Source: Emticicia oligotrophica DSM 17448 (GTDB lineage: Bacteria; Bacteroidota; Bacteroidia; Cytophagales; Spirosomataceae). Taken from it: a stretch of 64,000 nt of DNA. Location of the stretch: positions 372,001-436,000 of the forward strand of contig NC_018748.1 in the NCBI RefSeq assembly GCF_000263195.1, in the 5' to 3' direction. This document shows, in pieces, positions 19,483 to 22,963 of the stretch. Made by a program: the position numbers and the translations under genes. Numbering within the stretch: the stretch's first letter is position 1; the number at the start of each line of letters is the position of its first letter. The notes under the pieces were generated by a model. That model was not told the origin of the DNA. It ran no database searches and worked only from the letters and a program-made list of their open reading frames with translations.

Positions 19483-20382
19483 TTAAAACATAAATGTACA
19501 GTGAATACTTGTTTGCTGATTAATTCTAGATTCTTTATTTACTAGATTCTGAACAATAGGCTTTTGAAAAATAAAACCTGCTGAATAACGCTTGTAATAT
19601 AACTCTATACCCATATTAGCCATCATTAACCAACCACCCGTAAATCTATTTTTGAGCCCATTCTTGATATCTTGTCCAGAATATTCGACCATTGTACCTA
19701 CATTGGGCATCATAGTAAATCTACCAAATTTTGCAGCGTAAAAAGCCATCAATGAACCATTCGTTCGATTGGCAAACTTGTAGCCATTCGAATTTCGAGT
19801 ATTTAATTTGTGACTTGCATCAGCATTTATCCCCCAACTATGGTACCGAAGCGTATAAATAGCATTTAAGACAAAATCAACACTACCTGTTCCTAACTGA
19901 AAATTCGCATTTGCTCCTTCTTCGCCTGTATCTTCGTATTTATACTTTCCTGTTGGAAGTTTTAGCCCTCCTCCAATCAATAAGTTTTGATTTACCTGAT
20001 GGTTGGTTGAATCCCAAAAAGTATTGAATACATTATAATGCATTATCATTGAAGCATCGCCCAATCCTTCTATTCGGGCAGTACGGCCACTTAGCGTTGT
20101 TTGCTTATTCGAATTATAAGGTAGAAAAACCAATAGCTGGGTTTTCATAAAAGGATAAAAACGCCCCCAAAGTTCAGTGGTCTGATAATGCTCTTTGGTT
20201 TTCAAAACCTGACTATTCAAATGCGAGTCAAAGTCTTTGAAACGATAACGTACTCCTACAAATCGCATATTCGATTGGGGCAAAATTCCAAAAAAAGAGC
20301 CACTATTGGCACAGCCACACATATCACATGCTGATGCTGGTAAATAACCAATCATCAATACCCAAAATAATATTTTTTTCAT
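19483..20382 (-). CDS. Outer-membrane protein of the MbnP/MbnH-type cluster with a CDMCGC motif
   Basis: A 299-residue protein with a signal peptide cut near PASA (about residue 18). The mature N-terminus carries a striking CDMCGCANSG motif, then alternating hydrophobic strands through the whole chain (MRFVGVRYRFKDF, TELWGRFYPFMKTQLLVFLPYN, MIMHYNVFNTFWD, VDFVLNAIYTLRYHSWGINADASHKL) ending in an aromatic residue (CTFMF), as outer-membrane barrels do. It is the last gene of the cluster, 77 bp after the dihaem peroxidase gene. The three clustered Cys suggest metal (copper) capture at the periplasmic or outer face. I know no named family for it beyond its place beside MbnP genes. Confidence 0.65.
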   Translation of the reverse strand: MKKILFWVLMIGYLPASACDMCGCANSGSFFGILPQSNMRFVGVRYRFKDFDSHLNSQVLKTKEHYQTTELWGRFYPFMKTQLLVFLPYNSNKQTTLSGRTARIEGLGDASMIMHYNVFNTFWDSTNHQVNQNLLIGGGLKLPTGKYKYEDTGEEGANANFQLGTGSVDFVLNAIYTLRYHSWGINADASHKLNTRNSNGYKFANRTNGSLMAFYAAKFGRFTMMPNVGTMVEYSGQDIKNGLKNRFTGGWLMMANMGIELYYKRYSAGFIFQKPIVQNLVNKESRINQQTSIHCTFMF

Positions 20383-20459
20383 TTTCTGATTTTATATATT
20401 ACTGACTATAAACAGATTATATGTATTCTATAAACCTCTTTAGGGACTAAACTTATAAT

Positions 20460-21503
20460 CTATTGAATACCAAATCGTTTATTTTTCAGAAAATCATTAT
20501 CTGTTAATGTTTTCAAAAAAGCGATTAACTTCTTTTGTTCATCAGCCGTTGTTTGAATCCCTAATTTTGAGCCATTTTTCAACGAAGTATCTAATGTTGG
20601 AGAATCAACAATTCCATCGTTATAATGATTTAACACAGCCTCAAGTGAATAAAAACGTCCATCGTGCATATAAGGGGCCGAAACCTCAATATTTCGTAAA
20701 CTTGGTACTTTAAACGTATATTCGTCCTTGCGGTTTTGTGTAATTCTACCTCGACCCGTATCATCTAAATTATAAACAGGCAAACCGTTATTTCGATAAC
20801 TTTGGTCGGTAAATAATTCACCCGAATGACATGATGCACATTTTTGCTTAAAAACCTCCAATCCTGCCAATTCATCCTCAGTTAAAATTCCTCCTTGCTC
20901 TTTTCTTACATATTTATCGTAGCGTGAATTGGCCGAAACCAAAGCATTCATAAATTGTGAAAGAGCTTTCAAAAAACGTTCAGTTGTAATCTCCTTACTT
21001 CCATAAGCTTTCTGAAAAAGCGTAGCATACTTTTCTTTTTTTCGTAGCTTTTCTAAAACATTGCCTAATTTTTCATCCATTTCTAATGGATTTTCAATGG
21101 GTGCGATAGAAAATAAATCCAAATCAAAAACACCGCCATCCCAAAAAAACTCTTTTTGAAATGCCATATTCTGTATCGGCGGAGCATTTCTGACACCTTT
21201 CAAATTATCAATTCCATGACTTACATCATGCCCATGATGTGTAAAGGCATAGGCTTGATTATGACAATCAGCACAAGCAATTGAGCCATCTCTCGATAAA
21301 TCACCATCATTAAAGAGCTCTTTCCCAAGTTCAAATCCAGCAACCGACATTGGATTTTTATCGAAATTATAAACCGGTGCAGGAAAATTGGCAGGTTTAG
21401 TAAAAAGTTGTTCTGGGCTAATATCTTGGGAGTTATCGCTGTTACACGCAACTCCCAAATAAACAACGCTACTAACCAACATAGATAAATTCTTAAATTT
21501 CAT
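20460..21503 (-). CDS. MbnH/MauG-type dihaem cytochrome c peroxidase, lipoprotein
   Basis: A 347-residue protein. A signal with lipobox Cys20 (GVAC) places it on a membrane facing the periplasm. Two haem c motifs are clear: CADCH at 77-81 and CASCH at 222-226. The surrounding pattern (LSRDGSIACADCHNQAYAFTHHG, NAPPIQNMAF, FFWDGG, APYMHDGRFYSLEAVLNHY) is that of the MauG / cytochrome c peroxidase family. Its closest functional model by context is MbnH, which oxidises a Trp of the partner MbnP to kynurenine. The ATG overlaps the stop of the MbnP gene in a TAATG, which implies translational coupling. A plain peroxidase role is the alternative. Confidence 0.85.
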   Translation of the reverse strand: MKFKNLSMLVSSVVYLGVACNSDNSQDISPEQLFTKPANFPAPVYNFDKNPMSVAGFELGKELFNDGDLSRDGSIACADCHNQAYAFTHHGHDVSHGIDNLKGVRNAPPIQNMAFQKEFFWDGGVFDLDLFSIAPIENPLEMDEKLGNVLEKLRKKEKYATLFQKAYGSKEITTERFLKALSQFMNALVSANSRYDKYVRKEQGGILTEDELAGLEVFKQKCASCHSGELFTDQSYRNNGLPVYNLDDTGRGRITQNRKDEYTFKVPSLRNIEVSAPYMHDGRFYSLEAVLNHYNDGIVDSPTLDTSLKNGSKLGIQTTADEQKKLIAFLKTLTDNDFLKNKRFGIQ

Positions 21504-22309
21504 TAGTCGGCATCGTTATGAACATGGTCAACAATATAAGCTTTGGCATAATTTGCCGAAACTGTCAAACCAGCAGCCGGAGCCATAATGACACTTGATT
21601 TTGCCAAACTAATGTTGTTTACAGCACTAAACACTTTCGTCACATCAAAAACAACATGAATAGCTGGAGCAATATCTTTACGAACAGTGGCTGGTGAAGG
21701 CAAATTAAATGATAAGGATTTTAGATTATTTGGCGTTACTGATGATTTACCCCCGAAACCTCCAATGTGAAATTGATATAATTTCTGCCCCCCTGAATTT
21801 GCCGCAGCAGCACTTGAAATACCTTCCATTTTGAAGAAAATATATCCTGAATTCCAAGACCAATACATATTATCAGTGCCATAAGAGGCGGGGTCAAGTA
21901 CGCCAGTTCGTTGGCTAATATCTGCAATAGATTTTAAGCTATCTACGCCAATAGTGTAAGCTAAGCCTGTATAATTAGCAGCAGGAACGTCTTTTAAAGT
22001 CACATTCAAAGAATTAGCATCTGCTTGGCGAACCAAGAAATATTGGTCTGGAAACTTCACAACTTCGCCATTATCTTTTGTCAAAGAGAGATTTGAAACA
22101 AAATAATTTAGCGTAGTAACAGTAAAGTCTTCGCCAAGAGCATTGGCATATTTAGTTGAGCCTAACACTAATTTTTGGTCACCCATGCGGTTATCAAACT
22201 CTATTGTCAATGAATTTTTGTCATTTGGTGCAATTTCGTCTTCTTTTTGACATGAAATAATCAATACGGTTATGAATATGGCTAAAAATAATTTTAATAT
22301 ATTTTTCAT
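21503..22309 (-). CDS. MbnP family copper-binding-type lipoprotein
   Basis: A 268-residue lipoprotein (Cys20 in IISC). The mature chain has the MbnP family pattern: LTIEFDNRMGDQKLVL, VTTLNYFVSNLSL, a segment PASYGTDNMYWSWNSGYIFFKMEG containing both tryptophans of the protein, FHIGGFGG, IHVVFDVTKVF and a C-terminal VDHVHND. In the studied methanotroph MbnP one Trp is oxidised to kynurenine and the protein binds copper; the pair of Trp here and the adjacent dihaem partner fit that chemistry. No methanobactin precursor or biosynthesis genes are present, as in other Bacteroidota. An inverted repeat lies in its 5' region (22347-22373). Confidence 0.85.
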   Translation of the reverse strand: MKNILKLFLAIFITVLIISCQKEDEIAPNDKNSLTIEFDNRMGDQKLVLGSTKYANALGEDFTVTTLNYFVSNLSLTKDNGEVVKFPDQYFLVRQADANSLNVTLKDVPAANYTGLAYTIGVDSLKSIADISQRTGVLDPASYGTDNMYWSWNSGYIFFKMEGISSAAAANSGGQKLYQFHIGGFGGKSSVTPNNLKSLSFNLPSPATVRKDIAPAIHVVFDVTKVFSAVNNISLAKSSVIMAPAAGLTVSANYAKAYIVDHVHNDAD

Positions 22310-22346
22310 GATATTGTTTCGGTAAAATTTAGAAAATAGTATTCTA

Positions 22347-22373
22347 TTGATTGTAGTTTTTAGTTACAATCAA
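22347..22373. promoter_or_regulatory. Inverted repeat in front of the MbnP gene
   Basis: TTGATTGTA and TACAATCAA form a perfect nine-base inverted repeat with a nine-base centre, 38-64 nt before the MbnP start codon. It has no strong T run on the minus strand, so an operator or mRNA structure is more likely than a terminator. Confidence 0.4.
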
Positions 22374-22555
22374 GAATAAATAACTGATAATCAGACACTT
22401 GTTAAAGCAAGAAAATAGGCATGCTCTTATCTACTCAAAATATTGATAGATAGAGACAAGTAAAAAAACTACTTCAAAATCTGATGAATAGACACGATGA
22501 ATCATTAAAGCACAAAAAACTGGCTTAGATGATTTCAATAATGATGTAGAAAATT

Positions 22556-22963
22556 TTAACCGAAACAGGGAGGACGAAAAAGAGAACTAATGAGCGTAGA
22601 ATAGTGGCTCATCTGATAAAAGAAATTGTTTTGAACAACGTTAGATACACTCCTGAATGTCTGTGTAAATACAAAGTTTTCGTGGTGAAAAGTTTCTTCT
22701 AAAAGCTTTTTGAAACTTTGCTCTTGGCGGTCAGCCTCTTTGCTTGCTTTATCTTCGGCTATTTTGTGGAGCTGTTTGGCCAAATAGCATTTACCATTAC
22801 ATTTTAGTTCTGGTTTAAAGCGATTTTCACAGAGATTCTGAATAATGTATTCTTTGTTCAATTCAAAGTCAAGATAAACCACAGGCACTACCAGTATTCT
22901 TACACTGGTAAGCAAAAGCAGAAATACTGCTAAGCTGCGTTTTGAACTTGCTATTAAATTCAT
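22556..22963 (-). CDS. Small Cys-containing membrane-anchored protein of the MbnP-type cluster
   Basis: A 135-residue protein with one N-terminal hydrophobic segment (about residues 9-30: RSLAVFLLLLTSVRILVVPVV), either an uncleaved anchor or a signal. The exported part has NLCENRFKPELKCNGKCYLAKQL, with three Cys in a CxNxxxxPELxCNGKCYL context. I recall this short motif in small Bacteroidota proteins encoded next to copper or iron uptake genes, but cannot name a family. The rest is charged and helical, with a His pair (ETFHHENF) that could add metal ligands. It is first in the cluster and has a near-perfect promoter at 22968-22998, which would make its message leaderless or nearly so. Confidence 0.7.
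   Translation of the reverse strand: MNLIASSKRSLAVFLLLLTSVRILVVPVVYLDFELNKEYIIQNLCENRFKPELKCNGKCYLAKQLHKIAEDKASKEADRQEQSFKKLLEETFHHENFVFTQTFRSVSNVVQNNFFYQMSHYSTLISSLFRPPCFG

Follow-up and report, generated by a model that had tools for sequence, protein, structure and literature searches.

Four genes on the minus strand of a 64,000-nucleotide stretch of Emticicia oligotrophica DSM 17448 (contig NC_018748.1, positions 372,001 to 436,000; hereafter the window) encode a small cysteine-containing protein (C), an MbnP-family lipoprotein (P), a dihaem enzyme of the MbnH/MauG type (H) and an outer-membrane barrel (B). We found that a C-terminal HxH motif of MbnP is present almost exactly when its gene adjoins a gene for a barrel starting with CxxCGC, also after correction for the tree of P, and the gene set, its order and its conservation are solid. 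The reading that we favour, with moderate confidence and from sequence, is that the four proteins would form a copper-handling module of the cell envelope in which MbnH would create a copper site with kynurenine within MbnP, and the barrel would be the partner of MbnP at the outer membrane. All four open reading frames had been singled out in an original prediction made on this DNA, and their positions, strand and motifs (CADCH and CASCH in H, CDMCGC in B) were as claimed:

22556-22963, minus strand: C, a small protein of 135 residues, the open reading frame carrying CENRFKPELKCNGKC; hydrophobic N-terminal stretch from residue 8, C45-x9-C55-N-G-K-C59 and a C-terminal PP
21503-22309, minus strand: P, an MbnP-family lipoprotein of 268 residues with the PF20243 match; Cys20 followed by QKEDE, M148-Y-W150-S-W152, H181 and a C-terminal D-H262-V-H264-N
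20460-21503, minus strand: H, an MbnH/MauG-type dihaem enzyme of 347 residues; C77ADCH, C222ASCH and Tyr294, with CCP_MauG, TIGR04039 and TIGR03791 matches
19483-20382, minus strand: B, an outer-membrane barrel of 299 residues; C19-D-M-C22-G-C24 directly past a signal-peptide-like start

The order of the array is C, P, H, B, with gaps of 246 bp between C and P and 77 bp between H and B, and P and H share one base in the TAATG overlap that had been noted earlier. Across the 41 family loci described below, the median gaps are 125 bp for C-P (n=25 pairs), 3 bp for P-H (n=49) and 15 bp for H-B (n=27). Because of these short intergenic distances P, H and B look like one transcription unit, with C as a close upstream gene. 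The only tryptophans of P are residues 150 and 152, within YWSWN as first described. The description of C as Cys-rich was overstated for a protein with just four cysteines (45, 55, 59 and 133), although the first three are conserved. The Emticicia genome (5.22 Mb in 6 contigs) encodes a single MbnP.

The C-terminus of the window P, YIVDHVHNDAD, lies beyond the Pfam match and contains a confident last strand (residues 258-264) in the structural model. In a phylum sample of 345 genomes (MbnP in 89, B in 73 and C in 135), H[VI]H was found near the end of 29 of the 30 P proteins adjoining a CxxCGC barrel gene, the thirtieth reading DHTHN, and in none of the 78 other P proteins, which include 16 that have C nearby without B and eight adjoining barrels with another N-terminal motif. 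This tail sample covers 107 of the 110 MbnP matches, the omitted ones being two partial sequences and one second copy already in locus L267. The same association was assessed in 231 de-duplicated P proteins pooled from P-chosen and B-chosen samples, with a FastTree phylogeny of P minus its last 26 residues, in which the starred branches are less trusted, and the pattern scanned in the last 34 residues. The first tail pattern was present in 107/113 P proteins beside B vs 1/118 elsewhere (9 pairs, median p 0.008, range 0.008-0.031), and H[VIT]H in 109/113 vs 2/118; over eight independent pairs the latter changed the same way as B in 6.7 on average and the opposite way in none (median p 0.016, range 0.016-0.063). 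A third pattern picked after seeing the misses, H[VITML]H, gave 112/113 vs 2/118 (7 pairs, median p 0.016, range 0.016-0.063). One of the two proteins with a tail but no B (locus L066) has a B gene just past the fetched end. The association of the tail with C is weaker (median p 0.125). The statistical coupling of the P tail with B is solid.

Whether the two Cys genes keep company with mbnP and mbnH had been set beforehand as a point on which the original prediction could fail, and they do co-occur. The family sample held 101 genomes, 78 of them with MbnP; 40 loci were fetched, representing 27 of the 28 genera in which a match occurred, and the window brings the set to 41. On the same strand and within 6 kb of MbnP we found H in 41/41 loci, C in 33/41, B in 27/41 and all four genes in 27/41. 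Starting from B instead (79 named loci), P was near in 76, H in 77 and C in 69, and all four lay on one strand in 68; five of the 11 incomplete loci have less than 4 kb of upstream sequence. These two sets (L031-L070 and L071-L149) overlap, with 18 of 26 B proteins identical. A variant arrangement with two H genes, C-H-P-H-B, accounts for 7/41 family loci and 11/79 B loci. In the phylum sample, every one of the 32 strong B matches (at least 97 bits) falls in an MbnP genome; 30 of them have MbnP no more than 8 kb away, 31 are equally close to C among the C matches listed, and a rough expectation of 0.5% per B match rules out chance co-occurrence. Eight of the 42 weak B matches are near MbnP, and seven near C among the matches listed. 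These proximity counts omit three MbnP matches below the cut-off and three second segments of B matches, and those for C use the 150 matches listed, of which 57 have P in their vicinity and 45 have B. Membership of the flanking Cys genes in the system, as first proposed, is thus strongly supported by counts taken from both P and B, but they are not obligatory for every MbnP, since 38 of 110 MbnP matches lie near B and 44 of 110 near C among the C matches listed. Proximity counted from both starting points shows that some MbnP/MbnH pairs, though not all, have C and B as companions, and C is also found elsewhere.

Loci with C and B but no MbnP allow another reading, which we regard as distinctly unlikely: that C and B are an older metal-channel pair to which MbnP and MbnH were joined in some lineages, the chemistry of MbnP being dispensable to C and B. 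Consistent with it, C adjoins B or a B relative, with neither P nor H in the fetched stretch, in L150-L154, L164, L174 and L175, and P stands beside B without the Trp/His site in three Dyadobacter loci (see below). It is opposed by the close tracking of B by the P tail, which also holds over independent pairs. In L150-L153 the gene beside C encodes a CAACGC barrel, MbnP and MbnH being absent from the vicinity, and in L150, L151 and L153 a large open reading frame follows, identified by Pfam as a TonB receptor in L151.

The assignment of P and H to the MbnP and MbnH types is good. P scores 187.9 bits against PF20243 (MbnP; cut-off 27) over residues 32-242, and its AlphaFold2 model (mean predicted local distance difference test score, pLDDT, of 90) has the MbnP structure 7l6g as its best PDB fold match (E 2e-9). 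By sequence, a PDB search at E up to 1 returned 7l6g alone (E 4e-4), and neither CorA nor MopE. The single cysteine of P is Cys20 of the lipobox, and the four-Cys motif in the entry name of 7l6g is absent. H belongs to the MauG/peroxidase superfamily by its CCP_MauG score of 180.7 bits, and retains its first CxxCH haem motif in 187/187 homologues and the second in 186/187. Tyr294 of H aligns opposite a Met of peroxidase 1iqc, which we take to be a haem ligand in peroxidases, and this column is Tyr in 187/187 homologues. Replacement of the axial Met of peroxidases by Tyr is a hallmark of MauG and MbnH. A search of the genome for mbnB (TIGR04159) at E up to 1 gave no match (under-cut-off matches appeared in 4 of 14 control genomes), and a methanobactin operon was rejected on this result. 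The earlier statement that the module is without methanobactin genes accordingly stands for mbnB; mbnA and mbnC were not searched.

Work by Manesis et al. in 2021 is reported to have established that in methanotroph MbnP Cu(I) is bound by one His, one Met and a kynurenine close to them, that MbnH is needed, and that the kynurenine arises from the first Trp of a WxW motif. In the alignment of the window P with 7l6g, W150 and W152 correspond to this WxW, Met148 to a Met two residues ahead of it, and His181 to a His. The quartet Met148/Trp150/Trp152/His181 reads M-W-W-H in 146 of 168 P proteins, with Leu148 in five, and both Trp are present in 165/168; in the phylum sample WxW was found within residues 91-260 in 92 of 108 P proteins. 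Three Dyadobacter loci depart from this pattern, in that both Trp and His181 are gone together from the first MbnP copy with the HxH tail kept, and a second P copy downstream of B has the full quartet without the tail. The first copies lie at:

L120:5916-6785, MbnP lacking both Trp and His181, with HxH
L122:5972-6793, MbnP lacking both Trp and His181, with HxH
L135:5894-6805, MbnP lacking both Trp and His181, with HxH

A divergent MbnP paralogue was also observed in loci L067, L149, L064, L146, L139, L065, L120, L122, L143, L135, L134, L048 and L121, whose arrays contain a lower-scoring H as well. It keeps WxW, reading W-M-W-H, but His181 is replaced by Glu. In the alignment, 14 rows combine Glu181 with Ile, Leu or Ala at position 148, and 13 of the 14 have His153 and Met151; this paralogue may perhaps use another ligand set or metal. 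Concerted loss or change of the quartet residues fits one shared site, each group possibly representing a single event. The same divergent clade, together with the resemblance of H to cytochrome c peroxidases, could be taken to mean that the system has nothing to do with copper, with H as a peroxidase, P as its substrate or structural partner, and another metal or redox role such as peroxide defence. We consider this very improbable given the invariant Tyr at the position of the 1iqc Met, the copper genes in the neighbourhood of the arrays and the MbnP fold of P.

The lipoprotein start of P bears on its location. In Capnocytophaga a surface export signal of the form C-X-K-(D/E)2-X has been described (PMC5080379), and the C-Q-K-E-D-E start of the window P fits it. 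Of the P proteins with a recognisable lipobox (126; 20 are without), 28 fit C-x-K-[DE], and at least two acidic residues occur at positions +2 to +6 in 82/126 P vs 34/116 H proteins. Based on these counts, surface exposure of many P proteins is likely. Pfam families in the neighbourhood of the arrays include SCO1/SenC, NosL, NosD, a nitrous oxide reductase propeller protein, YHS and a TonB receptor. By phmmer, the 41 family loci contain SCO1 in eight, NosZ/NosL/NosD in four and YHS in ten, as raw counts with no background rate. In L039, L047, L069 and L070 the module lies directly downstream of a nos cluster (NosZ-type propeller, NosL, NosD and an ABC ATPase), and one C-B locus has SCO1, PCuAC and DUF411 alongside.

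Uptake is the most likely direction of the module. The opposite function, copper tolerance, in which P and B would rid the envelope of excess copper by removal or export and C would render periplasmic Cu(I) harmless, seems to us unlikely. The thiolate and HxH segments would fit sequestration as well as delivery, and the distant locus L154, with C and a B-like gene, also carries a cation efflux gene. Set against this, the copper genes neighbouring the arrays are of the delivery type (SCO1, NosL, NosD and PCuAC), efflux genes not having been searched systematically, and copper represses CorA, an analogue that has been studied (PMC3912023).

B is modelled by AlphaFold2 as a barrel of 12 strands, counted by eye (mean pLDDT 84). 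Its best Foldseek matches are FapF (5o67, E 8e-12) and the COG4313 channel Pput2725 (4rl8, E 8e-9), and because many other barrels match as well (195 in all at E <0.001) this likeness is one of fold only. C19, C22, G23 and C24 are kept in 118/118 strong homologues; the 27 weaker homologues vary, with C22 aligned in 25, C24 in 15 and C19 in 13. The window B has no match to any Pfam family at E up to 1, PF13557 (Phenol_MetA_deg) included, and the distant relative in L154 scores 27.5 bits against PF13557 (cut-off 22). Neither B nor C exceeds the cut-off of any Pfam or NCBIfam family. Of 148 homologues of C, 145 retain Cys45, 147 retain Cys55 and 145 retain Cys59, in a C-x9-C-[DN]-G-x-C motif, and C is a probable membrane-anchored metal thiolate protein. 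A paralogue of C in Runella zeae (L072:3070-3468), in which the three conserved Cys are replaced by Gly, His and Gly, adjoins a P without the tail. More distant barrel relatives in L155-L163 and L166 start with CxCAGAPL-like sequences or ACC[ST]AG, and a DUF3179 gene shares their loci. Such a gene is present in 10 of the 20 loci L150-L169, and DUF3179 with the distant barrel appears to be a separate unnamed pair.

The closest characterized systems are found in methanotrophs. Conservation of MbnP and MbnH as a pair extends well past the methanobactin producers studied, and in 2013 its members were termed 'mysterious partners' of unknown role (Kenney and Rosenzweig 2013, PMC3621798). Like the pair of Methylosinus trichosporium OB3b (7l6g), the window P and H are encoded by adjacent genes and have PF20243, WxW, a dihaem MauG-type partner and the predicted fold. 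Unlike that pair, the window P has one Cys, P and H are under the equivalog cut-offs, MbnB was not found in the genome, the pair is joined to C and B, and an HxH lies C-terminally outside the Pfam match. CorA is described as a copper protein of the cell surface that has a kynurenine site, is co-transcribed with a dihaem MauG-like partner and is repressed by copper (PMC3912023). The window module would resemble CorA/CorB and MopE/SACCP of methanotrophs as a putative surface copper protein with kynurenine and a dihaem partner; the CorA site consists of two His and kynurenine, whereas the candidates in the window P are Met and His. B resembles Pput2725 (4rl8) and FapF (5o65, 5o67 and 5o68) in its twelve strands and in having a segment ahead of strand 1, which in Pput2725 folds into the lumen and occludes the channel (PMC4493636), but differs from both in the invariant CxxCGC at its mature start and in sequence (11-13% identity). 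Among the papers listed by searches of the open-licence literature, none dealt with a Bacteroidota MbnP/MbnH gene set, C and B being nameless as search subjects.

Several observations count against a copper module of the kind that we favour. Profiles and conserved motifs support the original MbnP and MbnH assignments, as does the predicted fold in the case of MbnP, but both proteins fall under the NCBIfam equivalog cut-offs: P scores 49.2 bits against TIGR04052 (cut-off 140), and H scores 221.7 bits against its best model, TIGR04039 for MbnH (cut-off 362.85), with the MauG model lower at 198 bits and also under its cut-off. The P model reaches template modelling (TM) scores of just 0.50-0.57 against 7l6g, and its pLDDT is weaker around the candidate site (77, 78 and 69 for residues 141-150, 151-160 and 181-190). 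B residues 10-32, including CDMCGC, have pLDDT <50 and are placed without confidence. No B was found near 72/110 MbnP matches, and a scan of residues 91-260 found no WxW in 16/108 P proteins from the phylum sample; not one of these 16 adjoins a B gene. The Dyadobacter loci show that the Trp/His site and the HxH tail can separate, and the tail itself was found by inspecting the data, its pattern being widened twice. Of 20 phylum loci, two contain SCO1 and none contains nos genes (no background rate), and a scan of the flanking genes in the window recognised no copper gene beside the module. A NosZ search of the genome at E up to 0.001 also gave no match (under-cut-off matches were present in 6 of 14 control genomes), and nitrous oxide reductase was rejected on this result as the client in this organism. 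Comparison of the window with a plasmid collection by megablast, a collection that may omit records of this genome, returned no match.

In the mechanism that we propose for the four-gene copper module, H would oxidise the first Trp in the WxW of P, and the resulting kynurenine would form a Cu(I) site with Met148 and His181. P would be located on the outer membrane, probably at the cell surface, where its module-specific C-terminal HxH would work with B, and the N-terminal CxxCGC segment of B may be positioned inside the channel or at its mouth. P and B would exchange copper, and on the periplasmic side C would receive it and deliver it to copper enzymes. The original prediction had suggested that the two flanking proteins could be a copper 'entry gate' and 'carrier', roles that we likewise only infer for B and C. 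The fullest form of the proposed mechanism, which we regard as doubtful, is a methanobactin-free copper intake in which surface kynurenine-copper P would give Cu(I) through the HxH strand to a CxxCGC plug in the twelve-stranded channel, and from there to the tri-Cys C in the inner membrane, for NosZ, cytochrome oxidase or other clients.

To our knowledge, the passage of copper across the outer membrane of these bacteria is poorly understood. In a subset of Bacteroidota the MbnP/MbnH pair sits in a fixed set with two families that are under Pfam and NCBIfam cut-offs, one of which is tracked by the C-terminal HxH of MbnP, and this yields specific predictions for the residues of the site, the contact partner of P and the point at which copper would cross the outer membrane. 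Copper handling in a large bacterial phylum thereby becomes testable.

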